From Anadara kagoshimensis (taxonomy: Eukaryota; Mollusca; Bivalvia; Arcoida; Arcidae), in assembly GCA_021292105.1 (NCBI GenBank), contig CM037869.1, positions 42,761,990 through 42,825,989 of the forward strand: DNA of 64,000 bases. The letters run 5' to 3'. How positions within the stretch are numbered: position 1 is the stretch's first letter; each line of letters begins with the position of its first letter. The translations under genes and the position numbers were made by a program. Below are positions 1 through 26,388 of this stretch, in pieces. The notes under the pieces were generated by a model, which saw nothing but the letters and a program-made list of their open reading frames with translations, did no database searches and was not told the DNA's origin.

Positions 1-270
1 CGGAATATTAAGAACATTTGTTAAAATGAAAACAATATACACGTAAAACGAATGACTTTCCTATTCACATTAATATCATATTTTTTCTCTCTCTCGATTT
101 TTGTTTGTAAAAAAGTTTTTAGGGTCATAAGATGGATTTTCTAAACTAAGGTTTAAAATAATTAACGAAGGCGATGTTTCAGAAAAATACACCTCAAGTT
201 CAGAAGCATGATATTGTGTGATATTTTTAGAACTGGAGTTTTGTAAAATTTTAATTTGAGAATTTCAAAT

Positions 271-399
271 ATGTCGCAGAATATTGAAGAAGACGAAGAG
301 TATCATCTACCAGATCGGGCGCCGTCATGGATGTTATTCTTTGAAGGGACTTTGTATAGACGATACCTGAACTACCTCAACCAACATGATTTCTCACAA
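271..399 (+). CDS. Gene A exon 1: cytosolic N-terminus
   Basis: The exon encodes 43 residues rich in acidic and aromatic residues (starts MSQNIEEDEE) and ends at a strong donor, GTAAGT at 400. No known domain is recognised. The open frame continues past the donor into a GA-rich microsatellite (about 411-440), which is intronic. An acceptor-like TTTTTAG near 230 suggests that a 5' UTR exon boundary may lie just upstream. Confidence 0.75.
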
Positions 400-3300
400 G
401 TAAGTTACAGAGAGAGAGAGAGAAAAGAGAGAGAGAGAGCAATATATGTAATGTATTCAACAATGCAAGAATGAGAAGAGAAGTAATGGAATTTTAAGAC
501 CCAGTCTAAATTTTTTCACTTATATCGAGATATACCAGACTACAGTGGAGAAAACTGGAGTGCCCGGATAAAACTTTCTCGCCCTAGGATTTGTCCGATT
601 TTGACTAAAACGGCGGTGAAAGGTTAGCATTCTTTAGAACACTTGGCCATCGTATGCCTACAATTAATGAACGGGAATTAGTATTGAGATGATTGTTATA
701 TGCATTTATTATGTAAAGTTAATCATAATTAATAATTAATTATTACGTAACATAATCAGAACACTAGTGATATAATTATCAACACGAAGGTCATGTTAAA
801 AAATTCATTTCACGTCAATCAAAGTACTTTTATTTAATTGATATTAATTAACAAAGGTCTAAGGTACAGAAATGTCGAAAGTTTAACACTCAGCTAACGA
901 AACGGGAGTCGAGTTGCGTTGAGTAATGGTGTTTAACGTCCCAGTTAAGAATATTTCACTTATACCGAGAGTCAGACGTCGTCAGCTATAAACGAAGGTG
1001 CAGAAACTTTGCATGTGCATTGCGCTGATGGGATTTTACAGCAGAGTTCTTGATCGTGCCAAGCCCACCGTAACACGGGACCTCGTTTAAATGGAAAAGG
1101 AGTCGAGACTCGGATGCCGAGTGGCTCAGATATTAATAGCTGGTGGCCAGAAAGCTGTCGAGATAGGTTGCTGTTACTTAAAAGTTGTCGAGATGTAGCT
1201 AACGAGAAGCTGAGATGAGCTGCCGATTTGGCACCACTTCGCTTGCTTTTTGTTAAACTTTGGACAGGTCTGTACTGTAAGGTAACATACTAAACCAATC
1301 ATTGCATTACTTTGTCGAGTGCTCGCTCTGTATGTTCGAGGCCGTGGGTTCGAACCCACGATACTAATCATTGCAACTCATCTCTATGTCACTACGGTAG
1401 CTCAATGGTCGACTGCTCGCTCTGTATGTGTGAGGTCGTGGGTTCTAACCCCGTCCGGATCTGACCAAGATTTGAAAATAGGAAGAAACTGTTCTCGCCA
1501 AGCACTCGGCATTATCACGGGGTCCTTCGCAAAAAACCTGAAACTAACATATACTGACATAGTACATAAGGTCACTTCCTATAGCTAATAAAATGATGCC
1601 ACTAGAAAAAATGGTAAAGTTTTGTAAAATATGGCTACAAGTGCCGCGAATATCTGAAAAAACGGGGTTTTAGTAATAATGAACATTGTTTAGGTTAGCT
1701 TAGTGTTAAACTTTTTGACATACCTGTACTATAGATATGTTCTAGTATAACGTTAAAATAGGTAAATTCTCGTGAAATAACCGTACATTTCCTCTAAATA
1801 ATGAATGTCAAATTCAAAATATAAATTATAAACTTGTCATATATTAATTATCATGCGCTAAGAAAACCGAGTTAATTTATGTAAATTTATTCAATTTTAA
1901 ACACGAAATTCCGTAGTAGTTAAGTGGAAAAATACTTGTCACGAAACTCTTGGAATTTTATTTTATTATTAATTTTGATACAACGATAACCACAAGCATC
2001 ATTATACAGTACAGACCTGTTGAAAGGTTAATACCAGCTAACTAAAAGGAATTCAGATTCCGTTGCCGAGATGTCGAGATCAAGTTAAGATCTGTCGAAA
2101 GTTAAACACCCAGCGAAGGAAGATTGGTTGGTTGGTTAAATGTTGCTTAACGTCGCATCAGCAATTTTTCAGCTATTCGCGACGAGAACTATTTAATTAA
2201 TCTCTATGGATTAATATAATCTATGAACAATTTCGTGTATGCATGTGAAGTACGAGTGTGTTGCATGGTCTGCCTTGCACTAGTGCGCACGCAGGGCGAC
2301 TTTACCGTGCTAGTTCACAGAGTCAGTACGCCGCAGACGAGCGTACCACTCCCCCAGTCCATTATACTGATATCAGGTGAATCAGTAAAGGCCAACGGCA
2401 AGGAAAATTCACTTTCCCACATGTGGCCCGAGCGGGACTCGAACTCACAGCGGTGAGAGACCCTGGATTTGGAGACTTACATCTTATCCATTAGGCCACC
2501 GCGCCCTCTACCAGCGAAGGAAGAGGAATCGAAGCTCGGATGTCGATTAACCAAAATATGGATAGCTATTAGTAGAAAAACTACCAAGAGATAAAAAGCA
2601 GCTGTGAAAAAACTGTCGAGATATAGCTCCGATATCAGCAACAGATTCACTGTCAATTCATATAGCTCCGATATCAGCAACAGATTCACTGTCAATTCAT
2701 ATAGCTCCGATATCAGCAACAGATTCACTGTCAATTCATATAGCTCCGATATCAGCAACAGATTCACTGTCAATTCGTAAGCTTTGTTACGCCACATAGC
2801 GGTGTTGCCGCATAAACGCGCCCAACACGTCTATGCGGGGAATTCCAACGCATAAAGAGGTCCGCCATGTTTATGCGGCGGCGTTCAACGCATAAAGATG
2901 TGTTGCTTATATGCGGCGCAAGGCTGCCTTTTTGACGCATAACGATGGCTAATTTTAACGAGTTGGTATTAAAATTAAAAGAGCTGATATCTCGACAAAA
3001 ACGGTGGTGGTGACATAAATTATAACGACGACGGTGACAATTGAGAATTTATGTGTTGGTGTTGTTGATAATGGTAATAATAATACGAGGATGGGGACAG
3101 GAACGATGAGAGCGCGACGACGATGTTACGGTCGTCGTGCCGACGGCGGTGGCAATTATGACTGTAATGTTGATGATCGTTAAATTGTGATTTTGGCAGA
3201 ATTTCGACTTTTGCTTTAATAATAATAATAATGATAATAATAATAATATAATGATGATCATCAGGATGGTGGTAGTGTTTTATGTGAAGGTGGTAATAAT

Positions 3301-6300
3301 GATGGAGGTGTAAATGCAGGTGATGATAGTAATTGTTTTCTTTATGCGGCGGAATGTAGTCTTTTTGCCGCATAAAAGCTTTCTCTTTATGCGTTGAAAT
3401 TCCCCGCATAGACGTGTTGGAACACGTTTATGCGGCAACACCGCTATGTGGCGTAACAAAGCTTAGTGTTAAACTGTCGACAGGTCTGCGCTATATGGAT
3501 AGTAAGTGGCCGAATACAGTACAGACGTGTCGAAAGTTTAAAACTGAGCCAATGAAAAGAAATAAAAGCTTGAAAGTCGAGTGGTCGAGATATGGATCGC
3601 TAGTGACCGGTCACAAAACTCTTGAACTTTTATTTTATCATTAATTTTGATACACCGATAACCACAAAAATAATACACAGTACAGACCTGTTCAAATGTT
3701 AACACCGAGCTAAATTATAATTACGAAAAGGAATAAGTTGAGTTGAGTTGAGTAAAGGTGTTTAACGTCCAAGTCAATAATATTTCACTTATATCGAGAC
3801 GTCGTCAGCTATAGGCGAAAGTGCAGAAATTATGCTTGTGCGTTGCGCTGATGGCATTATACAGCAGGGTTCTTTATCGTGCCTCGCCTACTGTGACACG
3901 AGGCCTCGTTTATTTTAAGTTCCCATCTGAAAGAACCTGACTTTCAATTCGTAATGCCGAGTGCTTGGCGAAAGAACAGTCACTACCCACTTTCAAGTCT
4001 TGGGTCAGACCCGGCCGGGGTTCGAACCCACGACCTCCCACTTACGGAGCGAGCACTCTACCAATTGAGCTACCGCAGTGGTTCTAAAATAAGGCTCTGC
4101 TGCCTAATGGCCTGAAATATGGAGTTGAGTTGGGTCGAGTAATGGTAAACGTTCCCGTTAAGAATATTTCATTTTTATTGTGACGTCTCCTCCAGTTCAG
4201 CTAAAGGCGACGGCACAGAATTGTTGCCTGTTCGTTGGTCTGATTTCATTATACAGCAGGATTCTTTCTCGCGCCATGGCTTTTTTGACACGGGGCCTCG
4301 TTTATTTTAAGTTCACATGCGAAAGAACCCCGACTTTCATTTTGTAATGCCGAGTGCTTGGCGAAAGAACAGTCACTTCCTACTTACGGAGCGAGCGTTC
4401 TACCAACTGAGCTACCGCAGTGTTGACCCGAAAAATGGATCCCTAGTGACCGGTCAAAAACCTCTTGATTTTTTTTTTATTACCCGAGTGCTTGAGACAT
4501 GGATAGACCGGTCACGATACTCTTGAAATTTTATCATGTCATTAATTTTGATACACCAATAACCACACGATATGCATCATAAAATTTTATCCAGTACAGA
4601 CCTGTCGAAAAGTTAACAGTAAGCTTACGAAAAGAGGTGGAAGTCCATCTGTCGATAGCCAGAGATATGGATAGCCAGTGGCCAAAAAGCGACCGAGAAA
4701 TAGATGTACCAGTATTGATGTCTGCCGAAAACCTGTCGAGATATAAGTTACGAGGGCCGAGCTAGGGGATTAAGATACTGCCGATTCGACACTAGTTCGT
4801 TAGCTTCGTGATAATTTTTCGACAGGTCTGTACATGTTCATTATAAACATTTATGGGCAACCTTTGTTCACGTCAAGTTACACATGGTATTAAAGTATTT
4901 CACGATTGTTATAAAATTTATTGTTAACAGGTCAGGCGTCTTATGTCTCGGGGGGGGGGGGGGGGGGGGGGGGGGGGCTAAAGGCTAAAAAGTTATTCAA
5001 TTTGTTTGATTTCATTTACCAAATTAGGTATATCCACTTTTACCAAAATGTCCCAAATTTCCGATTTTGCACGGGGATTTGGAGCACATTTCTATATTCC
5101 GGTAAATTTAATTTACGGTAAAAAGAAAATATAATCATTCCGGAATTTATTTCATTCTTCCAGAATTTGCTTATTTATTCCGAACTTCGTGTAAATATTC
5201 CGGATTTTACTTTTTTTGCTCCAGATTGTCTTTTAAGTTATAATTCCGGATTTTTACGGAAATTACGGAAAGTGTCTTATTAATCCCGAATTACCCATTT
5301 ATTCCGATAACATCAGCCATCCCACCTAAATGCAAGATGTACTAAAAACCACAAGGTACCATATCAAGAGATGTCTCCCTTTTGAATATGTTGTTCTGTG
5401 TATTTTCAGATTCTTAATAACAAGATTAGTTTAGACGATAGTTTTTATGCCGGGAAGAGTTTTTACACCGATTTTCCGTCTATGCATGACGACGATATAA
5501 AGGATTTTTCAGAAACCGATGACCATTATAAACCTGCGATTATTGGAGCACCGGAAATACTACCGATATCGACAATCACAACAGAGAAATTTCTAGCTCG
5601 GGCAGACCGGAAACGGAGGGCGAAGAGAACACGTGGTTTTATATGCTTAGGGATATTTTGTATAGCGGCTTTCGCTGCAGCGGTATCGCTGTTGATGCAT
5701 TTCGTTTTCGTCAAAGGTACGTAAGCATGAAACAGGTAATCACGTTATGTAAACACGCATAATGCCACCCTACTACGCGTGAAATCAAAATCGAAAATCG
5801 AATGGAAGGAAAATGAAACTATGATACGTCAAACATTATGCCCCGGTCACACTTTCGGATCGCTTCGCCGGTTTAGCTACGTGTAACAGGAAAAAGAAAA
5901 ATTCAGTATTTGACCGGGGATCGAGCCCGGGACCTCCCTCTCTATAGTCGAGTACTTTAATTAACAACTGAGATTCCCATACTGATTCTCTCCCACACTG
6001 TTGTATTTGAGTATCCCACGGTTCTAAGTGGGAAATATCTAAATTCCCTCCGATGGACTTTATTTGGCCCGTAATCACGAATATACCACTTCCGAGAGAG
6101 GGCCTCACTGGTTACCAAACTGTAACAGGAAGGAGAAACAAAAGTTTCGGGCCGGGGATTGAACTAGGAACCTCCCTCGCGTACGTAGACGAGTGTTCTC
6201 CAATTTGAGCTACCAATACCAGACATCTACATACGGATAAAATCCGGCATCATATCGGGACCTTAGCTTTTCGTAAAAAGCCCGCCTCGGTATAAGTGAC

Positions 6301-9300
6301 ATTATATTGACTGGGTTATTAATTTGTAACCAACAATTTTACTGTTTTATTTGCTGTGAATTACATGTATTTATTTTCGTAGCTCCAATTTTAGTGGTTT
6401 TGATTGAAAGAATACCGTTTTGTGGGGATGTTAATTCGTAGTATGTGGATTCCGTTTAATCTATGTTTACGATGTATATCATTATACCATATACCATTTC
6501 GCTGATGTGTAAATTCGTAAATTGGGTAATCAAGAAAATGAATGATTTCACAGCACAGTCCAATCTGCCTCAAAGGCCACCTCTATATAAGGGCCACCTG
6601 CTTATAAAGGCCAGTAGAATTGTATCTTAATTGTACTTTATTCATATTATTTGAACCTGTATATAAAGGCCACCTGCTCATAAAGGCCACTTTTACTGGT
6701 TCCCTTGGGTGGCCTCTATAGATAGGTTTGACTGTACTTTCATTTATGTTCAAGTTTATTTATCTATTTATTTTTTTTTTATAATTTCAGATACTGATCC
6801 AATTAAAGACGGGGATGTAATACATATTGGCAATGGTACTATAAACGGGACCGATTTAAATGGTACGTGTAAAACGTCATTTGTTTCATTTTGTTCTGGA
6901 AAATCCAGGAACAGGCTCAAATTTCACAATTATTCCTGAATTTAGCATTTTCTTTATTAATAACTTGACTTTCGCATAGTTTTGGAATCTATGTTGGAAC
7001 TAGGAATGAACATTTTTTAGGAATCTAAATGCAGATTTTGTAAGGCTGAACTGATCTTCAATATGATACCTTCAATTTCTAAATATTTTTTACAATAGCC
7101 GAATTACATGTATTTAGATTTCAAATCTGCCAGATTTAGGTTGAGGAAACCTCAGTAAACTTAAGATTGCGAAACTGGGGTCAGAGGCTGAGAAATGATG
7201 CAATGAATTTTAAAATGCATTTTCAACAGCGACACAAGAGATAACATGAAAAATAATTATTTATAGTTCAACTAATTATAATCAGCCCACTAAACCCCCA
7301 TTCAAGTTTTTGACTTGTTAGGACAAACCTCCAACAAGTAAAAAATTGCAATTGGAGTTTAGTGGCCTGATAAGTCGGGACTAAATTTTATATTGCGTGG
7401 TCACGGAAAGTTCTTGAATGGACCCGCGAAAAGTATTGCGGGTTCACACGAAAAATACTGTGTGTTTATGCAAATTACTTTGCATGCTAACGCGATCTTT
7501 TGTCCTCGCGAAAAAAATTCGTGCTTGATCACGCAAAACTTAAAGCATTCTATCTAGTAAGCAGTTACTTATAGGAAGGTTCTTGAAAGCCAAAAGGCTT
7601 CAAAACAGGTTTCGTCTTATTACCTCCATGAATCTTATTGAAGATTCCATAGCGACTACCTAGATGAAGCTTATAAAATGCTAATTGAAGCCTCCATAGC
7701 AACTGACTAGCATGCCTCAGTGCTCATTGAAGTTTCCATATCGATCGACTAGATTATATTATCTAAGAGCTTATTGAAGGTTCGGTAGCGACGGACTAGA
7801 TGTACAAAAGAGAGCTCGTTGAAGATACCATAGCAACAACTATATGAAATTTTGAAACAAAAGTTTGGGCATGGACTTTTTTAGTTCAATATTTTCTTTT
7901 AATTTGCTGAGCAGTTTTTGTTAACTTTTTATGTATTTTATTCTATTAACTTCTGTTCACACAGTTTCGTGACTCATATTTGGAACAGTTTTTTCATTAC
8001 AATGTTTTATATATATTACAGGGAACCTGACAGATTTAACGAACCTTACCAGTAACATACCCGACTTTATATCAACCAATTTGGGAGGTTTTGATGGTGA
8101 TGAAATGGGTAAGACATTTACAGAGCTTATTCTTCTTGAACCCCAAGAAAATAAACCCGGTAAGACCTCTCACCACCTATATATATACATGTACAGTAAA
8201 GACCTGTTGAAAGTTAAAACTAAGCTAACGAATTGGCATCCAGTCGACAGCTTATCTCTACCCCACATTATATCAGTTATATCGCAACAGATCTCCGTAG
8301 CTGTTCGGTCTCTAGCTATGCATATTTTGACCACTCGACAGCCAAACTTCGACTCCTTTTCGTTGGCTCAGTGTTAAACTTTCGACTGGTCTGTAGTGTA
8401 GGTTTTACGTCCTTTGGGTATGTCTTAGTCTGAGAAATGTTTTTCCGTCCGCTTGTCGAATTTCCGATTGGCGGCTGAGCTTTTCTCCGAGTACTCTATT
8501 TCACGCAACCATTCATGAACCTACTGCCTCAATCCTAAATGTGTTTTAAAACACAATACCAACCATAACCAGTCTACTTTTTGAAAAGGACACTTATTCG
8601 CATGTTATACCCCTACAATGAAAGTTGGTATATATTAATTAATTAGTTCGTCCGTTCGTCGGCCTATTCATCTCTCTGTCCACTTGTCCATCTGCCCCAA
8701 TATCGTATCCGTCCATTCATCACTCTGTCCATACGTCCTAACATCGTGTCCGCTCTTATGTCTTTGACATCAATGGATGAAATTTGATCACACTTGGCTC
8801 AAATGTACATAAAAACCAACATGAGGCAATGTTTTACATACAAAACTTAAGTAGGTAAAAAGTCAAAGTAGGCGATGTTTGGCACGGGAGTATATGAATC
8901 CAATTATAGTCCACAAGCGCGGTTGCAATGTTGGTATACGTAGAGTGCTCGCTCCGTAAGTGGGAGATTGTGTGTTCGAACCTCAACTGTGTATGACCAA
9001 GACTTGAAAGTGGATAGTGACTGTTCTTTCGCCAAGCACTTGGCATCTGTAAATGATAGTCATGGTTCTTTCGGATGGGAACTTAAAATAAATGAGGTCC
9101 CGTGTCGCGGTAGCCATGGCACGATAGAGAACCCTGATGTATATAATGCTGTATTAGCGCAACGCACGGGGAAAATTTCTGCAGCTTCGCCTATAGCTAG
9201 CGACGTCTCATTTTAAGTGAAATTTTCTTGAAATTTTTGCACTGTCATCCAATTAAAATAAAATAAAAATTCCTAAACATCTCGCGAAAATAAAAATAAG

Positions 9301-12300
9301 CGGAAATCTTGAAATGTTGCTGATCGAGAAAATCAAATAACGTGAAAATTTTCCGATTAACAATATTTTAGATACCACATCTCGTCATCACCAAAGTAGC
9401 TATTAAAAGCACGCTCAATTCACACATACTTAATATTATCCTATTCCTCTGTCTTTCGAAGAAAGGGGGGATATTAAATTCGAACTTAAATAATTTATTC
9501 CGTCCGTCCAGAATCTTTTCTGGAGTAACCTTAAAAAATTATGATTAGTTATTTTTACGAAACTCGAAACTCAAAACAGTGGGAGGTCGTGGGTTCGATC
9601 CCTGGCCGGGTCTGACCCAAGACTTAAAAGTGGGTAGTGATTGTCTCTCGCCAAGCACTCGGCATTACGAAATGAAAGTCACGGTTCTTTCGGATGGGAA
9701 CTTAAAATAAACGAGGTCCCGTGTCACGGTGGGCTTGGCACGATAAAGAACCCTGCTGTATAATTCCATCAGCACAATGCACAGGCAAAACTTCTGCACC
9801 TTCGCCTACAGCTGCCGACGTCTCGATATAAGTGAAATATTCTTGACTGGGACGTTAAGCACCATTACTCACTCACTCACTTACTCACTCACTCACTCAA
9901 AACATCAACACTTATGGGAGATATCATTAACCCGGGTTGGTTTTCTCTCGTTACTAGGAGTTAAGGCCCTTCGAACCAACACTGTTTGCATATTTTCCTT
10001 TAAACATAAGTGCAAATCACAAAAAGCACCTACAGACAGGGTTCGTAATTCATTGAACTTGCTTGTATTTTATTTTTAGATAACATCAAAATGTCAAAAG
10101 GACCGTTCTACATCGGCGATAAGGACGTTAAGTTCACGTGTACTCTAACACAACTGGAAAACTGGAACTCTGTGTTTCTCATCGGAAGCAAAGTTCACGA
10201 AAACCAGACGTCGGTGTTTAATTTTAACTTTTCACGGGACCAAGAGACGGTGATCTTAAATAAACAAGAAAAAATATCAACCATTACAAAAATAAAACTG
10301 GAACAGGACGAAATACAACTAGTGTTGACGTATAGGACTATAGAATGTCCGGATGAAGAAATATATACGTGTGGAATAGAAAGTGAAAACGGAACAACCA
10401 CGAAAAGTATCCGTTTTAATGTAGCCAGTGAGTATATATTGTATTTAGGAATTATACGGCGGCACAGGCGTGACATAAAAAATATTTTTCAAATAAAAAT
10501 CATTGCATGCTCAGTGTGTAAAATTGATAAACACGCATCTGATAACTTTCGCGTGAACACGCAAATATGTTCGAGGTTTTTATAAATATATTTCTTTTTT
10601 TTCAAGTTGCCTCTGTGCCGCCGTACATTGGAGTATGCTTAAAAATGCATGTATATGCGACACAACTGGTTCACGTTCATACTTGATTCATACTGTGCGA
10701 TACTAAGCTCAACGCTAGTTGGTTGGTTTGTTGAATGTTGCTTAACGTCGCATCAGTAATTTTTCAGCTATTCGCAACGAGATCTCTACGGATTAATCTA
10801 TGAACAAGTTCGTGTATGCATGTGAAGAACGAGAGTGTTGTATGATCTGCCTTGTACTAGCGCACACTCAGTGCGACTTTAACGTGCTAGCTCACAGAGC
10901 TAGAACGCCGCAGACAAGCTTACTACTCTCGCAGTCAATTAAACGAAACCAGGTAAACCAGTAAATGCCAACAGCTAGAAAAATTCACTTTTCCCACATG
11001 TGATCTGAGCGGGACTCGAACTCACAGCGGTGAGAGACCAAGGATTTGAAGACTAATGTCTTATCAATTAGGCCACCTTTACTCAACACTAGTGCAAGCA
11101 AATTACTTTTTCTTGAAACGCTTTTAGACTCAACATGCATTGCTAGTGACGCCTGGAATCCACATACATGTTGTACATGTATTTAAAATTCCATAACCGA
11201 CTAGATGAACATCTCCAATTAAATTGGAGATTATAAGCTATTTGGTTTAAATTATAATTGCTATATTTCCCGTATATCAATTTAAAAAACTTAGAACCCA
11301 TTTTAAACTTGTACAGAAATAGGGGTCAGTTATATCTTAAATGGGGTACCCAACAATTACACAAATGCCAAAAGTACTATATACTATTGGCATTTTATTT
11401 TCTTATGAGGCCCCAATTCATAATTAAAAAAGTCATTGTTTTATATTTGCAATATTTTGTATTTGATTTTTATTTATACTTGACAGACTGAAATTTTTTC
11501 TAATTTTTTTTTATCAAAAAATTACGTGCAAGCACAGCATTATTGGCTAATATGCACGATACGCCACTGTAAGACCCCCCCCCCTTAACTAATACTTGAT
11601 ATATTTTAGCAATATTATATGGTACAACAAATCAAAAGTTTCGACAAAATTAGAATGTATTAGTATACTTAGAGTGGCCTTCAATTTGACACCAAGATTT
11701 TCCTTAACTCAGGTCTGGCAAATTTTAAATCAGAATAATTTTGTTAGTTTTGAAGATATTCATGAATTTGAGGTGTCATATTGTATATTCGCTAATGTTT
11801 GCCAAATTTAAGTTAAGGGAAATCTTAGTTTAATTAAGGAATGATTGTGAAATTGGAGCTTGAAATTAATGGATATCTTTAAAACTTTTGGATTTAAAAT
11901 ATACCAAATTTAAGTTAGGAATTCAAACTTCTGATTTCGAACAAGTTATTTAAATAAATAATTAATTTCTTAATTTTCATAAAGTCAAGTACGATGTATT
12001 TGTACAATGCTCTATTTATAACGGCTATAAATCACGGGTGTGCCATCTATCCGGAGTTTTTCAAATACGTGCTTGTAGTATGTAGATAAAAGTATACCTA
12101 AATGTGGTACCGAGCGTTACGAAAAATTAATATCATGATACCTGGTGGACAACTGTCTCGCATTGTGGAGATATAAAATGCTATTTGACCTACACGTATA
12201 CACGAGACATGCTTATATAACACGGGTATAAAATGCGTGCATGGTCATATATTTACTGTAGGTAAATTCACAAGACTTTATTTTATATAACCTACCCAAT

Positions 12301-14118
12301 TCAGGATAATAATTAATGACCGGAGTGGAAATGTGTTAGTTAACTTACATTTTATACTCCTCTTCTCTGTCCACGTCATGGCGTCTATGTCCAGTCTATC
12401 AACTGACCAGAACAAAAGGAACCCCGGGAAACCAAAACGAGGCAATTGGGTAGCTATGTATACGGTACAGACCTGGCGGAAGTTTAACACTGAGTTAAAG
12501 AATTAATATCGAATCGACAGCTCACGTCGGCCACTCGTTACCTATACCACGGCAGCTCTTCAATAGTAGCCATCTACGTCTTTGGAACTTTTCGCCCACT
12601 AACTATTCATATCTTGAATTTGCACTTGGACTCCTCTTTGTTAGCTCAGTGTTACACTTTCGACAGGTCTGTACTGTACATACAAGTATAAATCGTCTTT
12701 GTAACAAAAAAGCGTGACCCGGCGTGATTATACTCATACGGTGATACGCTTCTTACACCTATTTGTCATTTAAGTGTCATCTAAGTAGGGAAATTCAAGT
12801 GAGAACCATTTGGTTAAAAAACGTGAAAGAGGGGTACAAATATGAAATTACCTACACAAGAATAAAAATAAAGCAGGAATTGATAATTTAAGAATTTTTA
12901 AAATGTTTGTTGCATTTTTTTGGAAGTTGTGCAAAAATACACGCTCTGGGGGAAAATAGTTTTTATCTTGTATTTTCATTTCCTTTTTAAATGCTTTATT
13001 TACAGGAAAACCAGAAAATTCAATAAAGATGACTGTTCCAGTTGAAGTAGTTTCTGGAAATTTATTACGTATTTCCGCTTCCTGGAACTCCGGATATCCG
13101 GAACCTTGGGGAAATATCACGTGGGGCAATACGAGAAACGGAAGTTCAGAAATAATCGATTTCAATAATGACACAATGCAGTTTTTTACAATTCAGAACA
13201 ATACTGAGGACTGTCAAATTACATTACGCAGTTTTATAAGATTTACACCAACCATGAAAAACAATGATACAAATATAATAGCCCAAGCTACATTAAACGA
13301 AGATAGAAAGACGGCAAATAAAGAACAAAATGTTGTTGCTATAGCAACAGAAACCATGTTGGTCGTCCCAGGTATAAAATTTTACTTTTATTTTGCAGTT
13401 TATTGTCAAAAAATTTTATGTTAATAGTGAATTGTTATTGTTGTCCCCCAGATAGACTCATGTGTACCCCCAATTTTGATTTTTGATAATTTTGACATAC
13501 TAGATATATTTGTTGTTTTGTTAAAAATTTCAAAATTTGCTCTACATGTACAGAATAAAATTCACTTTCGGATGAATGAAAAAATAATTTTCGTATTAGG
13601 TCAGTATATTTTGTATGACGTTGTGACAATTTCTTTGGTAACTTTATTTGAAAATACGACTTTTTTTGCATTTTCCATGTACACTCAATTTGTGGAAAAG
13701 CAGTAGTTTTCCTGTCTGAATCGATGTAAAGTTTATATTAAAGTGTATCGAGCTAGGCAAGAGGTGCTGCTTACCCAAACTCACTTCTATAGTGGAATTT
13801 CACGTATTTTGATCGCTGTTTTCAAAGTTTTTATTTTTGGGGATTGTGATTTGAACATGGTTTGTGTTTGACCATCAACATTTAATGTCATTTAATTTTT
13901 CTGTTTTAGAGGACCATTGTATCGAACATCCGGGGCTTGAAAATGATACATTGATATCACATCCGTATACGTGCACTAAGTTTGTACGCTGTTTACCCGA
14001 GAAGATAGTTGTGTTTGCATGTCCAACGGACACCTGTTTTACTGAGGAATCCGGCCAATGTGACTACCTCACTGACCTTCAAAACAAAGACGGGAGTAAC
14101 CAGATAGATCAAGGATAA
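271..14118 (+). CDS. Gene A: type II membrane protein with two Ig-like domains and a C-terminal CBM14 chitin-binding domain
   Basis: Seven exons join in phase with GT-AG introns: 271-399, 5410-5716, 6791-6862, 8022-8108, 10080-10427, 13006-13371 and 13910-14118. They total 1518 nt, giving 505 aa and a stop. Intron 1 is phase 0 and all later introns are phase 1, as is usual for shuffled extracellular modules. The ATG at 271 has A at -3. There is no N-terminal signal peptide. Residues about 119-144 form one hydrophobic helix preceded by a basic cluster (RKRRAKRTR), so the N-terminus should be cytosolic and the rest outside. Residues 199-314 are Ig-like, 315-436 a degenerate Ig-like domain, and 437-505 a CBM14 (peritrophin-A) domain. 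Ig-Ig-chitin-binding order is that of protochordate VCBPs, which are secreted. A role in binding microbes or chitin-bearing surfaces is inference. No transcript evidence is available; the phase agreement across six introns makes the model strong. Confidence 0.85.
862..1283. mobile_element. MITE-B copy split by a SINE-1 insertion
   Basis: Left end (about 862-912) and right end (about 1087-1283) carry the inverted termini of a recurrent small element: TACAGACCTGTCGAAAGTTT on one side and AAACTTTCGACAGGTCTGTA on the other. A 3'-tail SINE-1 fragment (911-1094) sits inside, flanked by the direct repeat GGAGTCGAG, a likely target-site duplication. Confidence 0.6.
1315..1545 (+). mobile_element. SINE-1 heads, two in a row (tRNA-derived)
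   Basis: The tRNA-like head (TGCTCGCTCTGTATGT, then GTGGGTTCGAACCC as box B) occurs at 1315-1367 and again at 1393-1470. The second is followed by the SINE-1 body (CGCCAAGCACTCGGCATTA), truncated near 1545. A true tRNA gene is rejected because the head continues into the SINE body. Confidence 0.6.
2123..2508 (-). mobile_element. SINE-2 full copy with 14-bp target-site duplication
   Basis: On the minus strand the copy opens with a tRNA-like head (box A TGGCCTAATGGA, box B GAGTTCGAGTCCC) and ends with a GACGTTAAGCAACATT-type tail, with CCAACC repeats at the very end. The sequence CCAGCGAAGGAAGA flanks it on both sides (2110-2123 and 2510-2523), a clean target-site duplication showing insertion into a MITE-B element. 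Confidence 0.75.
2627..2781. repeat. 39-bp tandem repeat, four units
   Basis: The unit ATAGCTCCGATATCAGCAAC plus AGATTCACTGTCAATTC(A/G)T is repeated four times almost without change. A 39-bp period is a multiple of three, so the repeat stays open on the minus strand, but nothing indicates translation. Confidence 0.85.
2778..3465. mobile_element. Element of about 690 bp with long terminal inverted repeats
   Basis: Arms of about 85-100 bp at 2778-2880 and 3365-3465 are near-perfect inverted copies, beginning TAAGCTTTGTTACGCCACAT. Short motifs of the type TATGCGGC and GCCGCATAA recur within the arms. The centre is simple-sequence DNA (GATGATAATAAT). It is inserted into the right part of a MITE-B element. 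No transposase frame is visible. Confidence 0.75.
3735..4085 (-). mobile_element. SINE-1, near full length
   Basis: The minus strand shows the head GGTAGCTCAATTGGTAGAGT, box B GGGTTCGAACCC, the body with GCCAAGCACTCGGCATTACG, and the tail GGACGTTAAACACC. It is one of the best preserved copies and can serve as reference for the family. Bivalve SINEs with a tRNA head and a conserved 3' domain are known; I do not assign a family name. Confidence 0.8.
4121..4424 (-). mobile_element. SINE-1, internally deleted
   Basis: Same tail and head as the neighbouring copy at 3735-4085, but about 45 bp between the body and box B is missing (AACAGTCACTTCCTACTTACGG runs directly together). Confidence 0.7.
4585..4838. 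mobile_element. MITE-B copy
   Basis: Starts CAGTACAGACCTGTCGAAAA and ends TTTTTCGACAGGTCTGTAC, giving inverted termini around about 250 bp of non-coding sequence. Confidence 0.65.
4950..4977 (+). repeat. Homopolymer of 28 G
   Basis: An uninterrupted run of 28 G in intron 1 of gene A. Such a run can form G-quadruplexes and its exact length is unreliable in any assembly. Confidence 0.95.
5410..5716 (+). CDS. Gene A exon 2: juxtamembrane region and transmembrane helix
   Basis: TTTTCAG precedes the exon and GTACGT follows. It encodes an acidic stretch (SFYTDFPSMHDDDIKDF), then the basic cluster RKRRAKRTR, then about 26 hydrophobic residues from GFICLGIFC to MHFVFV. The basic residues on the N-terminal side follow the positive-inside rule and predict type II topology. 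Confidence 0.85.
5838..6226 (-). mobile_element. SINE-like element with two tRNA-like segments (SINE-4)
   Basis: Two box-B-like stretches, GGGGATCGAGCCCGGGACCT (5914) and a second form near 6155 (GGGGATTGAACTAGGAACCT), each followed by a head-like region ending in GAGCTACC-type sequence. It resembles a dimeric tRNA-derived SINE in intron 2 of gene A. Confidence 0.45.
6570..6738 (-). mobile_element. MITE-A copy
   Basis: Palindromic element built from GGCCACCTGCTTATAAAGGCC-like blocks and ending GGTTTGACTGTA. Other copies lie at 16953-17117, 33113-33298 and 41599-41779; the complete ones carry CAGTCAAACCTG-type inverted termini. Confidence 0.65.
6791..8108 (+). CDS. Gene A exons 3 and 4: extracellular stalk, N-glycosylation-rich, with alternative donors
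   Basis: Exon 3 (6791-6862) and exon 4 (8022-8108) encode about 53 residues joining the TM helix to the first Ig-like domain. The stalk has several N-x-S/T sequons (NGT twice, NLT twice, NTS-like sites). Exon 4 has two perfect GTAAGA donors, at 8109 and 8160. Both leave phase 1, so using the second adds 17 codons without shifting the frame. Confidence 0.75.
7637..7850 (+). repeat. Degenerate tandem repeat of about 45 bp, five units
   Basis: ATTGAAG followed by TTCCATAGCGACTGACTAGA-like sequence recurs at 7637, 7684, 7726, 7773 and 7818, with spacing 42-47 bp. It lies in intron 3 of gene A. Confidence 0.6.
8192..8398. mobile_element. MITE-B copy, intact termini
   Basis: Opens GTACAGTAAAGACCTGTTGA and closes TTTCGACTGGTCTGTAGTGT. 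The internal edge GACTCCTTTTCGTTGGCTCA mirrors the left edge. It starts about 35 bp after the second alternative donor of gene A exon 4. Confidence 0.7.
8911..9230 (+). mobile_element. SINE-1 copy
   Basis: Head GTAGAGTGCTCGCTCCGTAA, body TTCGCCAAGCACTTGGCAT and TTCGGATGGGAACTTAAAAT, tail truncated after GACGTCTCATT. Confidence 0.7.
9578..9898 (+). mobile_element. SINE-1 copy ending in an (ACTC)n microsatellite
   Basis: The head is truncated before GTGGGAGGTCGTGGGTTCGA. The body and tail are well preserved to GACTGGGACGTTAAGCACC, followed by about eight ACTC units (9867-9898), the simple-repeat end of this SINE family. Confidence 0.75.
10080..10427 (+). CDS. Gene A exon 5: first Ig-like domain (V/I-set type)
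   Basis: A single phase 1-1 exon of 348 nt encodes residues about 199-314. The B-strand cysteine is in VKFTCTL (C219) and the F-strand cysteine is in the classical D-x-x-x-Y-x-C motif DEEIYTC (C296), 77 residues apart, normal for an Ig fold. The C-strand tryptophan is not clearly in its usual place. A third cysteine (IEC, C288) lies close to the F strand. Acceptor TTTTTAG, donor GTGAGT. Confidence 0.8.
10718..11078 (-). mobile_element. SINE-2 copy
   Basis: Matches the copy at 2123-2508 through TTGCTTAACGTCGCATCAG, ATTTTTCAGCTATTCGC and the tRNA-like head near 11007-11075, with scattered differences. Located in intron 5 of gene A. Confidence 0.7.
11694..11822. repeat. Imperfect inverted repeat
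   Basis: AGATTTTCCTTAACTC and GCAAATTT on the left face CAAATTTAAGTTAAGGGAAATCT on the right, about 130 bp in all. Probably a small hairpin element in an otherwise featureless AT-rich part of intron 5 of gene A (about 11100-12450). Confidence 0.4.
12461..12676. mobile_element. MITE-B copy, intact termini
   Basis: Termini GGTACAGACCTGGCGGAAGT and ACTTTCGACAGGTCTGTACT are inverted copies, followed inward by AACACTGAGTTAA and TTAGCTCAGTGTTAC. This copy defines the element length of about 215 bp. Confidence 0.75.
13006..13371 (+). CDS. Gene A exon 6: second, degenerate Ig-like domain
   Basis: A phase 1-1 exon of 366 nt. The segment ISASWNSGYPEPWGNITW resembles the B-C strand region of an I-set domain (x-C-x-x-x-G-x-P-x-P-x-x-x-W), but serine stands where the B-strand cysteine should be. 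The F-strand region (NIIAQATLN) also lacks its cysteine. One unpaired cysteine is present (EDCQITL). Several sequons (NIT, NGS, NDT, NNT) suggest heavy N-glycosylation. Assignment rests on this pattern and on position between an Ig and a CBM14 exon. Confidence 0.6.
13910..14118 (+). CDS. Gene A exon 7: CBM14 (peritrophin-A) chitin-binding domain and stop
   Basis: Six cysteines at C440, C458, C464, C474, C479 and C487 follow CBM14 spacing, with the family signatures HPYTCTKFVRC and VVFACP before the last two. The first cysteine lies four residues into the exon. The protein ends 18 residues after the last cysteine at TAA (14116-14118). Acceptor TGTTTTAG. Confidence 0.85.
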
Positions 14119-14121
14119 AAG

Positions 14122-14560
14122 AAATTTAGAAGTGCGGACTTTTCTGGACTGGAGGACTTTCACATGCTTTAAGGGTTCATCGAAGATGAAGTGTAATAGA
14201 ACACAGAAGTATTTGCAAAAGAGAATACTGGTTTTTCTGGACCAAAATGATTGAGTCAGATGGCTTGTGACACAAAATTACTAGGTAAATTATGTTTTGC
14301 AAAGAAATTAAGGAGTGCTGACTTTTCTGGACTGGAGCTTTTGCTTTAAGGGTTCAGCAAAGATGAAGTAACCTGGCTTTTCTCGACCAAAATGATTGGG
14401 TCAGATGGCTCGTCACACAAAATTACAAGGTGAATTGTGTTTTGCAAAGACAGAGTTTAATAGACCACAAAAAATTTACAAAAGAGAATGCAAAGTTTTT
14501 TGGACCAAATTGATTAGGTCATATTGCTCGTCACACAAAATTTATAATTGAATGACGAGC
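14122..14560 (+). repeat. Tandem repeat of about 150-170 bp starting just after the gene A stop, probably in the 3' UTR
   Basis: Three diverged units are visible. They share the blocks TGACTTTTCTGGACTGGAG, GGGTTCA, TGGACCAAAATGATT, TCAGATGGCTCGTCACACAA and TTTTGCAAAGA. The third unit is shortened. The array begins a few bases after the stop codon, so it is likely transcribed as part of the 3' UTR. Confidence 0.65.
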
Positions 14561-14712
14561 AGTAAGTTTTCATTACTCACAGAGAACACTGTGTTACGAG
14601 TGCCATTCAGATTAAAAATACCTGAAAGTCAAATGCAAGCTTTAGTACGTGTACATGTCAAGCATATTGTTGTTCTGTTAAAAAAAGGTTAAAGTACTAG
14701 TAGATAAAAAAA

Positions 14713-15058
14713 AGAGTTGATGTAAGTAATGGTGTTAACGCCCCAGTCAAGAATCTTTCACTTATTACGTCACCAGCTCTAGGCGAATCGAAGGTGCAGT
14801 TTTTTGAATGTGTGTTGCGCTGATGACATTATACAGCAGGGTTCTTTAACGTGCAAAACCCAGCGTGACATGTACATGGGACCGCGTTTCTCTGAAATTT
14901 CCATCCGTAAGAACCTTGACTTTCATTTTGTAATGCCGAGTGTTTGGCGAAAGAACAGTAACTACCAACTTTCAAGTCTTGGTCAGACCCGGCCGGGGAT
15001 CGAACGCACAATCTCTCACTTTCGGAGCCAGCACTCTACCAACTGAGCCAACGCATTA
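14713..15058 (-). mobile_element. SINE-1 copy
   Basis: Near full-length minus copy with head CAACTGAGCCAACGC (read on plus), box B GGGGATCGAACGCAC and the tail AGTAATGGTGTTAACGCCCC. It follows the putative 3' UTR repeats of gene A. Confidence 0.75.
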
Positions 15059-15171
15059 GTCAATGAGAGCAAGTGTCACGAGTGTCATTAAAACATAAAA
15101 TGACTGAAAACCAGATACATTGTACACGAGCATGTCAAGCACTATTAGGGTTTAAATACTTTTTTCAATAG

Positions 15172-16580
15172 TGGACAATAGTAAAAAGATTGATTTATTG
15201 AATCGAGTTAAACGTCCCCATCAAGAATATTTCACTTATATCAAGACGTCATCAGCTACAGGTATAGTGTCAGAAAATTTGACATTTGCAGTGCGCTTAG
15301 CAATCTTTAAAGTGCCACGCCTGCCATGGCACGGAGCGAGCACTTTACCAACTGAGCTACCGCTGTGTTTAAACTAGGAAACGTTCAATCAACGACTGCT
15401 GTCTTTTCTAGTCCAAAATGAATCGATAATTACGAAATTACACAAAAATGTACTCTGTGCTTGTGAAAGACTTGGTTCATTTGCATAATGCTTAAGAAAC
15501 GAAGTCTTTTAAGAATATGTCGTATAACATTTTTGAATAGATTTTATGATTAAATGTTAAAAAATGGTAAATGACAGATATGCTGGATGACCAAGTAGAA
15601 CTGCTCATTTGTCCTTACAATAGCCCAGTATCAAATAAGTGCTTAAATAGACAGGAAACGTTCTTTTCTGATAATCAAGTCTAAACAGTTCAATGAACAA
15701 TGAAAATTGTTGAAAACTTCAAACTTACTTATGGTACATAAATTATGTATGAACGCAAAGCAAAATATACTTTTGCTTACGTGAGTTTTACATACGAGTA
15801 AAAATACCTAGGTATGCAATTCTCGCCGTATAAATGGGGCTTTAGACAAAGTATGTAGTGGACGAAGCTAAATTTTCATGAGAAATCATATTAATATGAC
15901 GCGCATCAGATCAAACGGAAGAATACCCTAGCGTACAATGGAATAATTCTTTTCGGGTGGCCCTCTATAAATATTCAACAAATTGAATTGAGTAGTGGTG
16001 TTTAACGTCCTAGTCAAAAATATTTCACTGATATTAAGATGTCGCCAGCTTTAAGCGAAGGTGCGGTAATTTTCCTGTGCGTTGCGATGATGGCATTATA
16101 AGGAAGGGTTCTTTATCGTGCCAAGCCCACCGTAACACGGGACTTCTTTAATTTGAAGTTCCCATCCGAAAAAACAGTGACTTTCATTTCATAATAAACA
16201 GTATCACAAATTTCCATTTGTTATTTTTGAATGTTTTATTTCATAGCACATGCCAACGGATACCCGTAATAGAAAAAAAAACTTATAGTAAAGACATAGA
16301 AGTATATTTAAATGATGTAACATCTCTCGACTTTGATGAGAAACGGACATAACTGAAAATGTCCGATTGAAATTTCGCGCCGAAAGTCTTCGGCAATTAG
16401 AAATGGAAACCACAAGTCTAAAACCCGATGTTTCGTGTCGATGTAGGCATGCATTCTACACTAAAAAACAAGCCCTTTACTTTGCTCTGAATTCACTGCA
16501 AAGATAAAAATCCTGACACTTCGTCTAAAGCTGGCGACGTTCCGATATAAAAACGATATTCTTGACTGGGCCATAAAACT
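15172..16580. mobile_element. Three further SINE-1 fragments
   Basis: Minus copy 15172-15366 has a large internal deletion joining the 3' domain directly to the tRNA head (CGGAGCGAGCACTTTACCAA). Minus copy 15987-16195 lacks the head. Plus tail fragment 16508-16580 ends GATATTCTTGACTGGGCC. Between them (15370-15985) I see only AT-rich unique sequence. Confidence 0.6.
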
Positions 16581-16952
16581 CATCGAAGCGATCAATCATT
16601 CAATAACGATATAGATTGTTTAATTCTGTAAACCGGGAAATTGTCCTTGACTTTGTTTTGTTGACTTGATTTATACATAACGAGACAGTGTGGTTGATTA
16701 CTGTATATTTAGAAATCTTACTTTAGATAAAATATCATCCCTTTAGTCTTATCTTGCAGTACACTTTGAGGAATTAGGTTAGGTTATTGGTTTCTGCTCT
16801 GTAAGTCTTGAGATAAATACTCCAATCTAATGTCACAATGTGTGAACGCGTTTTTATGTTTTATTAATTAAATTTGTTTTATTTTCAAATCGAAGTAATG
16901 CTTCGCACCTTGCAGTTTTTATTTTGAACTGAATACTTTTCAAAGATAATAA

Positions 16953-17117
16953 CAGTCAAACCTGTCTTTAAAGGTCACCCAAGGGAACCTTGGCCTTTTT
17001 GGGCAGGTGGACTTTATATACAGGTTTAAATAATATGAATAAAGAACAATTGGGATACAATTCTCCTGGCTTTTTCAGGCAGGTAGCCCGGTCTTTAAGG
17101 CAGGTTGGACTGTAGAT
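16953..17117 (+). mobile_element. MITE-A copy
   Basis: Opens ACAGTCAAACCTGTCTTTAA and ends CAGGTTGGACTGTA, with the internal ACAGGTTTAAATAATATGAA block shared by all copies. Confidence 0.7.
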
Positions 17118-17149
17118 ATTATACATGAAAGCGAAACAGCGACTCATCT

Positions 17150-17300
17150 CGGCCCCTTGTTAGCCAAATATCGAAGGTTGCTAAATATATTTCGATCACT
17201 TTTTCGTTACTTGTTATTCTTATCTCGGTCATTATGAAGCCGACCTTAAACACTTTTTCTTTTGCTCGTTGTTAAACTTTCGACAAGTCTATATTGTATT
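17150..17300. mobile_element. MITE-B right-end fragment
   Basis: Ends TTTTGCTCGTTGTTAAACTT then TCGACAAGTCTATATTGTA, the right terminus of MITE-B. The left terminus is not recognisable. Confidence 0.45.
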
Positions 17301-17516
17301 ACTAGGGCGAGTAAAAAAAAACCCAGTTTATAGCTGATTTCTGGTTGTGATCAACCTCTTCGGGTTTTTATATAATTGTTCTCTAGTGTGATGCACAAAC
17401 ACTAAATGTGTTCAAGTGCCATCAGTCAAGAACTGAAAAACCAGGGCTCTTCCTATTGGACCCACTTCTCAACTGTATTTAGGATTTTTTCGTGAGACCG
17501 GAAATGACGTCCATTT

Positions 17517-17737
17517 TTTTCAATGGGTTTCGCCTCTGTACCACGTGAAACCCTCTAATGTTTGTGCTAAACACTTATTTCCAATGGATATGGAATCGCA
17601 TAATTATAAGACGAAGTTTGTGCGTGAAAACGACGTCATTCCGGGACTGTGACGTTGACGTTTTCCAAAACGTTCCGCACAAACGTTAAGAAGTATTGAT
17701 CACGTGGTACAGCAGCGAATCCCAGTTGGGAATAGGA
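17517..17737. mobile_element. MITE-C copy (CACGTG-containing inverted termini)
   Basis: Left edge AATGGGTTTCGCCTCTGTAC then CACGTG; right edge CACGTGGTACAGCAGCGAAT then CCCA. The termini are inverted copies of each other. A second copy at 58138-58346 shares both edges. Confidence 0.65.
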
Positions 17738-18290
17738 AGAAGTTGCAAGTAGCTAGGCCAGGCGAAAAGGCAGAATGGTGTATTTATTTTTATCCGTTGC
17801 AATATCCATTGCCTTTGCATCACTAGCAATGTTTGACATTCAATATTGACTCGATACGCGTGCAATTTGGTATCCAGGTATAAAACATTTATTAATCAAG
17901 GCACAAAAATCATGACCGTGTCAGACAATCGGAAACTGGATAGGCTGGATACTTTTTGACTCACCCTCACATGTAAAACTTTAATTAAATACTCAAGTAT
18001 TTAAAAATGCAATACCGACCACATCTATATAATGACCACCTGTCTTCAATAAAGATATCTGATATATACTGATATCGTACCCATAAGTTCCAGAATGGCG
18101 TTGGAAATCAACGACTTACGGTTAGTGTTTTGACACACTTCCTCAGAAAATAGGATCTGACAGGATTGGTTCTCTGGAGACTCTTTAGATCGCTAGTTCA
18201 CCAAATGTCCTTATTTCGTACATTTTTCTGTTCTTTCTATCTTTCATTGGTACAAATTTAATAATGACTGTGTTTTTTTTATTTGAACCA

Positions 18291-18296
18291 TTTATT
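18291..18296 (-). terminator. Probable polyadenylation signal of gene B
   Basis: AATAAA on the minus strand 24 bases beyond the TGA stop of gene B, with a second one at 18278-18283. Distance from the stop is short but workable. Confidence 0.45.
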
Positions 18297-18319
18297 TGTG
18301 TAATATAATTACAATCTTT

Positions 18320-21292: not shown

Positions 21293-21347
21293 TGTCTCGA
21301 CAGTGTTTTGAATAAATGAGAGTATTCCAAAGATTATATGTTATGTA

Positions 21348-22167: not shown

Positions 22168-22197
22168 TTATGTTATATACCGGGCAAAACCGATTAG

Positions 22198-22533
22198 TTA
22201 AGTTTAGTAATGGTGTTTAACGTCCAGTCAAGAATATTTCACTTATATCGAGACGTCGCGAGCTACAGGCGAAGGTGCAGAAATTTTGCCTCTGCGTTGC
22301 GCTGATGTCATTATACAGCAGGGCTCTTTATCGTGCAAAGCCTACGGTGACACGGGACCTTATTTATTTTAAGTTCCCATCCGAAAGAACTACCGTGACT
22401 TTCATTTCGTAATGCCGAGTGCTTGGCGAAAGAACAGTCATTACCCACTTTCAAGTCTTGAGTCAGATCCGGTCGGGACTCGAACCCACGACTTCCCACT
22501 TACGGAGCGAGCACTCCTCCAACTGACGCAGTG
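22198..22533 (-). mobile_element. SINE-1 copy inside duplication copy 1
   Basis: Near full length on the minus strand. The head lacks one base compared with its duplicate at 26043-26388 (CAACTGACGCAG against CAACTGACCGCAG). Confidence 0.75.
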
Positions 22534-23654
22534 GTTGAAAACCGATGAGAAAAAGAAGTCTTGATAATACCAGTTCAAACGGTGTCGACCATGTTTCAAA
22601 CACCGAAGCAATTAAATCAAGTAAATAACATTTTTGTAGATAGAGTGTTAACAACTGTTCAAAATAAAATGTAAATAACTTCACGTTACTTAGCCGTATA
22701 AAGACTTACTAACATCGATCCGATATAAACAAATCTCGAGTCCCAAGATGTCATTTTTGCAACGATCGAAAGGACCCAAAACAGGGTACTAGATTAGTAA
22801 CTGTTGCAAGCACAATGGCGAAAGTCATAGATGGACTGAATTTGTAACCGATTGGTAATACAAAATGTGTATACACTTAGAGTACAACATTTTTTACAAA
22901 AAATAGGCAATTCATCCTAAAAACATTACAGGTTTCAATGAAATAACCTTTTTTAATTTTATTTTTTAAATCACTATGGTAATTAACTCAAACATTGATT
23001 CATTTCTATAATAGATGGACATACTCGAGTTCACAAATGGTAAAAAAAAAAAACTGCCACCTCACTGGTGACGTCTCGATATACGTGGATATTCTTGACT
23101 CGGATGTAAAACAACATTCAGTATTCAACTGTTATGTCTGATGACGTCTTGTCGCTTGATGTATGGGCACTTTGTTTTTAAAACTTCGTAAGAACCTGTC
23201 TTTAACCCAATTGTAGTTTTGTTACATATATTTGTTTCAAAGGAGGTGTTAACCCCTCCGAAGCACCCGGAAGCTTCCCTGGTGGAATTTCACTTGTCTT
23301 ACCTGACATGTCAGTTCCAAATTTTTTACTTTGCTTCTGGATTGTAATTCGGACAGGGACAAGTACGATTGCTTTTGATTGCATGTTCTGAAAAACACAT
23401 GTTTTAGATATATTTCATTTTCTTTTATTTTCAAATGATATAATTGTCATAAATTTAGTTAATAATTTTGAAATTTAAATATTTCTAAAATATTGATTTT
23501 TTATAATGTAAAATTCAAGACAATACTCACGTATACAATAATAATAATAATAATAATTCATAATTCCAAGTCGTAACATCAGTAAGCGTTATTTATATTG
23601 TAATACAACAAATATAAAAAGAGATCGAGTTACATTTACGTCATTGAATTTTTC

Positions 23655-24095
23655 TGAGGGACTTGTGCGAAGAGAGTTTTTTCCGCCAATGAAAATGTCC
23701 GAATGATAGTTTTCACTAGTGATATAGTTACAAACGAAATTAATCCGTTGTGCTAAGAGAGTGTTTGTTGCTAGTATAATTGTCACGAAAGATAGTTTTC
23801 ACTAGTTATTCAGTTACAAACGGAATTAATCCGTAGTGCTAAGAGAGTGTTTGTTCCGCCAGTATAATTGTTACGAATGATAGTTTTCACTAGTTATTTA
23901 GTTACAAACGGAATTAACCCGTTGTGCCAAGAGAGGGTTTGTCCGCCAGTGAAATTATTCTGAAGGATAGTTTTCACTAGTGATATAGTTCCAAACGGAA
24001 CTAATCCGTTGTGCTAGAGAGTGTTTGTTTCGCCAGTAAAATTGTTACGAAGGATAATTTTCACTCGTGAATTAGTTACAAACGGAATAAACCCA
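23655..24095 (+). repeat. 87-bp minisatellite, about five units
   Basis: GATAGTTTTCACTAGT recurs at 23705, 23791, 23879 and 23966, with a diverged form at 24053; spacing 86-88 bp. Each unit also has GTTACAAACGGAATTAA and AGAGAGTGTTTGTTCCGCCA. Repeated in the second duplication copy at about 27500-27945. Confidence 0.85.
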
Positions 24096-26042: not shown

Positions 26043-26388
26043 TAAGTTTAGTAATGGTGTTTAACGTCCCAGTCAAGAATATTTCACTTATATCGAGACG
26101 TCGCGAGCTACAGGCGAAGGTGCAGAAATTTTGCCTCTGCGTTGCGCTGATGTCATTATACAGCAGGGCTCTTTATCGTGCAAAGCCTACGGTGACACGG
26201 GACCTTATTTATTTTAAGTTCCCATCCGAAAGAACTACCGTGACTTTCATTTCGTAATGCCGAGTGCTTGGCGAAAGAACAGTCATTACCCACTTTCAAG
26301 TCTTGAGTCAGATCCGGTCGGGACTCGAACCCACGACTTCCCACTTACGGAGCGAGCACTCCTCCAACTGACCGCAGTGGTTGAAAAC
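26043..26388 (-). mobile_element. SINE-1 copy inside duplication copy 2
   Basis: Duplicate of the SINE at 22198-22533 and identical to it except for single-base indels. Confidence 0.75.

Follow-up and report, generated by a model that had tools for sequence, protein, structure and literature searches.

Proteins that combine Ig domains with a chitin-binding module have been described for amphioxus and tunicates, and one review, in its available text, also names an echinoderm. VCBPs are described as secreted proteins that have a leader peptide and a pair of V-type domains (PMC7947342, PMC4757023). According to the available sections of two papers (PMC9334734, PMC8878817), the Ig domains of gastropod VIgLs are hard for automated tools to detect, and Heterobranchia alone are described as having bona fide FREPs, GREPs and CREPs; a figure legend presents Aplysia FREPs with a signal peptide. 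Here we analyzed a 64-kb stretch of DNA (the window), in which a predicted gene appears to encode two Ig domains and a C-terminal CBM14 domain within one type II membrane protein, which is the architecture as read from the sequence. The predicted domain order matches that of VCBPs, in which a tandem pair of Ig domains precedes one chitin-binding domain at the C-terminus (PMC7947342, PMC4757023, as far as their available text goes). In contrast to VCBPs, the protein is predicted to be anchored as type II with a tail of 118 residues, and its second Ig domain is probably C2-like and without the core disulfide.

Structure of the predicted gene and its surroundings

The seven plus-strand exons between 271 and 14118 (Table 1) join into a spliced open reading frame of 505 codons and a stop. 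All joins have GT/AG borders and the intron phases (0, 1, 1, 1, 1 and 1) are compatible, which confirms the chain of seven phase-consistent exons proposed in the initial annotation. Exon 1 has an in-frame stop immediately 5' of its start codon (ORF 247-474) and a GT donor at its end. On the plus strand of the window, no other stop-to-stop frame is as long as the open reading frames of exon 5 (178 codons) and exon 6 (154 codons); in first-order Markov sequence, frames of at least 154 codons occurred 0.1 times per 64-kb strand on average, and 2 of 100 random sets reached 178 codons. A codon model was trained on 983 codons from other ORFs of the window, and each exon was compared with 3000 intron segments. 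Codon usage favored exons 3 to 7 (P = 0.0043, 0.0030, 0.0040, 0.0003 and 0.0063, respectively), and the bias was weaker in exon 1 (P = 0.099) and exon 2 (P = 0.064). By simple splice scores the weakest donor is that of exon 6 (0.5). The introns reach 5 kb, but just 538 bases separate the end of exon 6 from exon 7. A splice scan of plus-strand positions 1-18300 with an acceptor threshold of 3 found no better-scoring extra exon; the same threshold would also miss exons 4 to 7, and thus this is a weak negative.

A single phase 1-1 exon accounts for each predicted Ig domain, and the exon encoding CBM14 is entered in phase 1, which suggests that the gene was assembled by exon shuffling, of which phase-1 domain exons are the usual sign. 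A tblastn search with the whole protein found no paralogue within the window (best non-self E = 0.75), and an NCBIfam search assigned the protein to no family. Among viral contigs, two stretches fit a pattern, and neither codes for a relative.

Table 1. Predicted coding features of the window (positions count from its first letter; residues are those of the predicted protein)
Feature	Position	Strand	Content or basis
Exon 1	271..399	+	Start codon and first part of cytoplasmic tail, residues 1-43
Exon 2	5410..5716	+	Remaining tail with its basic cluster, then the TM helix (residues 44-146); AG/GT borders
Exon 3	6791..6862	+	Stalk with N-glycosylation sequons, residues 146-170; phase 1-1
Exon 4	8022..8108	+	Stalk with N-glycosylation sequons, residues 170-199; phase 1-1
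Exon 5	10080..10427	+	V-like Ig domain, residues 199-315; Cys219, Cys296, extra Cys288
Exon 6	13006..13371	+	C2-like Ig domain without B/F disulfide, residues 315-437
Exon 7	13910..14118	+	CBM14 (peritrophin-A) domain and stop, residues 437-505
C1q-domain exon	18320-18778	-	Pfam, E = 2.3e-19
Coiled-coil ORF, upstream of C1q exon	20753-21340	-	May begin with a signal peptide (by eye)
NIDO, VWD, MUC4-type C8-3 and EGF exons, with Thr/Ser-rich stretch	~35861-56159	-	Pfam

The downstream neighbors were identified by a Pfam scan of 10 of the 50 listed ORFs, all on the minus strand. The NIDO, VWD, C8-3 and EGF exons probably form one MUC4-like gene. Since the recognized downstream coding sequences (C1q and MUC4-like) are on the minus strand, no alternative host gene for exon 7 is evident among the ORFs scanned. 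A mollusc is plausible as the host: C1q genes can be numerous in bivalves, 321 having been reported in an oyster (PMC4346834, available text).

Several repeats were observed in the window. The segments 22191-25791 and 26035-29639 form a 3.6-kb tandem duplication with 99.7% identity (0 mismatches and 9 gap openings), which is either very recent or an assembly artefact. A satellite array of 9.2 copies of a 145-bp unit (44387-45725) is located within the span of the probable MUC4-like gene. A dispersed repeat of about 190 bp occurs at 3746-3936, 22200-22390, 26045-26235, 38495-38685 and elsewhere, including the introns of the gene described here; there are also inverted copies (for example, 9683-9871), and the better copies are 86-92% identical to the reference. 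Intron 1 contains a run of 28 G at 4950-4977, which is likely hard to sequence.

Membrane anchor and domains of the predicted protein

The TM helix of the initial annotation corresponds to one hydrophobic segment, at about residues 119-144, and it is the sole region reaching a hydropathy of 1.6. Windows of 19 residues with a mean of at least 1.6 start at residues 117-128 only, with the peak (2.65) at 120-138, and the N-terminus is not hydrophobic, the best such window starting within residues 1-40 having a mean of -0.08. Eight K/R residues are found in the 15 residues before the helix and two in the 15 after it, the following flank is acidic, and all 13 N-X-S/T sequons are C-terminal of the helix. 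Because the single hydrophobic segment, the charge bias and the side of the sequons concur, a type II orientation is supported, in which the N-terminus would be cytosolic and the helix would act as a signal-anchor. The predicted tail (residues 1-118) has seven tyrosines, one YxxF motif, and a basic cluster at its end. A motif scan of the tail found no ITIM, YxxL/I or hemITAM pattern, and we therefore rejected signaling by such motifs; with one YxxF motif and none of these three, capture or uptake suits the tail better than tyrosine signaling. Release by furin was also rejected, as RKRR and RAKR (residues 110-116) are on the predicted cytosolic side.

The three C-terminal domains fared differently against Pfam profiles: CBM_14 is above its cut-off in exon 7, but exon 5 matches I-set and V-set below threshold and exon 6 alone has no Ig match. 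Exon 5 had been noted as an Ig exon with the motif C...DEEIYTC. The motif and the cysteines (Cys219 and Cys296 with 76 residues between them, and an extra Cys288) are present, but the Ig profiles remain under the cut-off; the exon alone gave I-set with E = 9.3e-4 (19.6 bits, cut-off 23.7) and V-set with E = 0.07, also below its cut-off and covering profile positions 12-108 of 109. In a PDB sequence search with exon 5, two of the three rows were Ig-containing muscle proteins, titin and KIAA1556 (which we take to be obscurin), with E values of 0.65 and 1.5.

The single-sequence AlphaFold models of exons 5 and 6 are both poor, and the fold matches of the exon 6 model were uninformative. The exon 5 model (mean pLDDT 38.8) gave 1377 Foldseek matches at E up to 10, of which the best 50 were examined, none having E of 0.001 or less. 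The top of these 50 was catfish NITR10/11 (E = 0.014, probability 1.00, TM about 0.54). Classed by entry title and not by individual chain, 46 of the 50 were antibody, nanobody, T-cell receptor, CD8, NITR, CRIg, MPZL1 or sodium channel beta-4 entries, all of which bear V-type domains; the four not so titled were 9zz6_K, 2wy3_B, 2ij0_C and 5ks9_E. These model-based matches support a V-like Ig fold for exon 5, as support and not as proof. The exon 6 model has low confidence (mean pLDDT 49.6), and its fold search gave 303 matches at E up to 10; among the 50 listed, the best E was 0.63, with probability at most 0.18 and TM at most 0.33. Antibody and nanobody chains make up many of these 50 rows, to which we give little weight at such low match quality.

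The second Ig-like exon of the initial annotation has, taken alone, no Ig match in Pfam. Exon 6 contains a single cysteine, Cys384, and so cannot form the canonical B/F disulfide. The best Pfam row was ANTH, with E = 0.0076 for the unchanged exon and 0.0018 for a changed copy; ANTH, DUF5650 and the other sub-threshold rows are all under their cut-offs and were treated as chance. Exon 6 alone against PDB gave three rows, one of which was an antibody chain (E = 1.6). With exons 5 and 6 in tandem, all eight PDB rows were IgSF chains (E = 0.019-1.5): Dscam (0.019), neurotrimin (0.044 and 0.046), IgLON5 (0.075), OBCAM (0.69), an antibody heavy chain (0.85), CD276 (0.98) and nectin-2 (1.5). Four of these rows are IgLON relatives and are thus not independent. 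The exon 5-6 junction is spanned by seven of the eight ranges (three as alignments, four from the ranges only). The reversed exon 5-6 control gave two rows, neither of them an animal IgSF chain, namely an enzyme activase (E = 0.1) and a bacterial attaching-and-effacing protein (E = 2.1), which itself contains Ig-like domains. In the PDB search with the whole protein, two type II secretion proteins (E = 0.078 and 0.15) scored like neurotrimin (0.14).

In the neurotrimin alignment, an alanine of exon 6 is opposite the first core cysteine. A second alanine was picked by eye, both were read as cysteine, and Pfam was rescored. This changed exon matched C2-set_2 with E = 4.3e-4 and 20.7 bits (cut-off 21). 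Of eight other cysteine placements, three gave an Ig row (C2-set_2 at 0.0068 with a position shared, C2-set_2 at 0.078, and V-set at 0.13 with a position shared), and no Ig row was obtained for the other five or for the unchanged exon. Added cysteines tend to favor Ig profiles, and thus only the contrast among placements counts. The most fitting reading of exon 6 is a C2-like Ig domain whose core disulfide would have been lost. A V-type domain was rejected for this exon, because the unchanged exon has no V-set match and the cysteine test favors the C2-like form. Taken with exon 5, Ig folds are supported for both exons.

Membership of exon 7 in the CBM14 family is secure at the level of profile matching. 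Exon 7 alone matches Pfam CBM_14 with E = 2e-9 and 37.9 bits (33.3 bits in the whole protein; cut-off 22.1), and in PDB it matches 8in3, a 25 kDa polyphenol-binding protein (E = 1.3e-6), 7bwe, chitin-binding beak protein 3 (E = 0.029), and 6g9c, a chitinase (E = 0.029). The six-cysteine CBM14 exon described at first stands as to the count and the family, but the six cysteines are not those of the canonical CBM14 six-cysteine pattern. The match reaches no further than profile position 48 of 53, short of the canonical last cysteine, which is absent here, and the extra Cys479 is opposite a non-cysteine in all five aligned domain copies (three PDB chains). Consequently, the disulfide set must differ; perhaps Cys479 replaces the missing partner. 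Two positions past the fifth canonical cysteine the domain keeps an aromatic residue (Tyr489), a feature shared with 7bwe and 6g9c.

Possible functions and rival explanations

The product is most likely a recognition or adhesion protein at the cell surface that arose by exon shuffling. Within this range we tentatively favor, while giving it somewhat less than an even chance, a single-gene type II glycoprotein used for recognition at the cell surface. The N-terminal 118 residues would be cytosolic and the helix at about 119-144 would anchor the protein, with a presumably glycosylated stalk projecting the V-like and C2-like Ig domains outward. The CBM14 domain at the far tip would bind chitin or related GlcNAc polymers, and epithelial cells or haemocytes might thereby capture chitin-bearing particles, such as fungi, arthropod or algal debris, or chitinous mucus with its microbes. 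The Ig pair could set the reach and add protein contacts or dimerization.

The same domains might instead serve as a structural tether, by which an epithelium (mantle, gut lining or larval shell field) holds a chitinous matrix (periostracum, shell framework or gastric shield), with the Ig pair as a spacer and no immune role; we regard this as possible, if on the unlikely side. A membrane anchor with an outermost chitin-binding module suits the holding of a matrix, and the tail lacks immune tyrosine motifs. A comparison of five conchiferan shell matrix sets showed ChtBD2 domains in every one (PMC8700984), and such domains also occur in Pinctada shell proteins (PMC4660305). In a clam, Ig-domain proteins were elevated in the extrapallial fluid, from which the shell is formed, although the authors class them as immune (PMC8902148, each according to its available text). 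However, a V-like domain is unusual as a mere spacer, and the literature searched, as far as its text was available, contained no shell protein uniting an Ig domain and ChtBD2. The missing last cysteine and the extra Cys479 raise the question of whether the CBM14-type domain is degenerate and has lost chitin binding, leaving an ordinary adhesion molecule with a V-C2 layout, akin to nectins or B7 proteins but with inverted topology. The resemblance of the exon 5-6 tandem to Dscam, IgLON, CD276 and nectin-2 would fit, but a score well over the cut-off and the retained aromatic Tyr489 make such a loss unlikely. Mis-joining, with the Ig and CBM14 exons in different transcripts or exons 1-2 from another gene, is quite unlikely in our judgment. 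The exon chain was predicted from genomic sequence alone, across introns of up to 5 kb, with weak codon bias in exons 1 and 2 and a weak exon 6 donor, but frames and phases agree at all six junctions, and exon 7 requires an upstream plus-strand partner, which exon 6 could supply 538 bases away; the scan of 1-18300, despite the threshold that misses exons 4-7, offered no better extra exon.

The initial annotation had left the choice between a distant VCBP and a convergent fusion. The former, a genuine if distant kinship with chordate VCBPs followed by the gain of a TM anchor, would account for the shared order of two Ig domains and a C-terminal chitin-binding domain and for the V-like exon 5. 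Nevertheless, we consider it highly improbable. Of three VCBP features, the single C-terminal chitin-binding domain is found here (CBM_14, 37.9 bits, in the last exon, with binding itself predicted), but two tandem V-type domains are not (exon 5 is V-like below the cut-off and exon 6 is best read as C2-like), nor are a leader peptide and secretion (the N-terminus is not hydrophobic and the TM segment is internal). With one feature present and two absent, we did not file the protein as a VCBP. Furthermore, none of the PDB rows for the whole protein (7), exon 5 (3) and the tandem (8) names a VCBP, and neither does any of the best 50 of the 1377 fold matches of the exon 5 model. A convergent fusion fits better, given the anchor, the lack of a leader and a second Ig domain that is not V-type, and the architecture was probably assembled independently of VCBPs.

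Comparison with other known systems

The Ig-Ig junctions of nectin-2, CD276, IgLON and Dscam align to exons 5-6. These proteins are type I or GPI-anchored, without a chitin-binding module. Pif177 (vWA and ChtBD2) and chitin-binding beak protein 3 have the CBM14/ChtBD2 module in common with this protein, but no Ig domain or membrane anchor is seen in them in the material available. As predicted for this protein, oyster CgIgIT2 and other membrane Ig receptors have membrane-bound Ig domains; they are reported to recognize microbes; however, CgIgIT2 differs in having five Ig domains and an ITAM, and the available text mentions no chitin-binding module (PMC11999971). In the open-access literature searched, no Ig-CBM14 membrane protein is described. 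The initial remark that a type II anchor with a chitin-binding domain at the tip is undescribed holds provisionally for this literature.

In a manner comparable to the architecture predicted here, gastropod VIgLs (FREP, CREP and GREP, and the related QREP and HREP) have one or two Ig domains with a carbohydrate-recognition or C1q module, and the available sections describe no type II or CBM14 form (PMC9334734, PMC8878817). Their partner domain is, in the same sections, fibrinogen, C-type lectin, galectin, C1q or H-type, whereas here it is CBM14; no fibrinogen, C-type lectin or galectin domain is among the six Pfam rows of this protein (E up to 10), which therefore does not qualify as a VIgL on this point. 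Although not filed as a VCBP, it may work similarly to VCBPs. A bolder proposal, which we hold to be speculative and rather doubtful, is that a mollusc or other protostome independently built the logic of VCBPs (V-type recognition with chitin binding) as an inverted cell-surface receptor, which would have the chitin-binding tip outermost and a tail able to drive uptake, for chitin-sensing at a host-microbe surface. If the gene is real, expressed and non-chordate, the fusion of Ig and chitin-binding domains would have arisen elsewhere too, in a membrane-bound form rather than as a secreted opsonin. Under the same conditions, the protein would offer a clear way to decide whether Ig proteins bind chitin for immunity or for building a matrix, and the series of Ig proteins with carbohydrate-binding partners (FREP, CREP, GREP, QREP and HREP) would be extended to CBM14.
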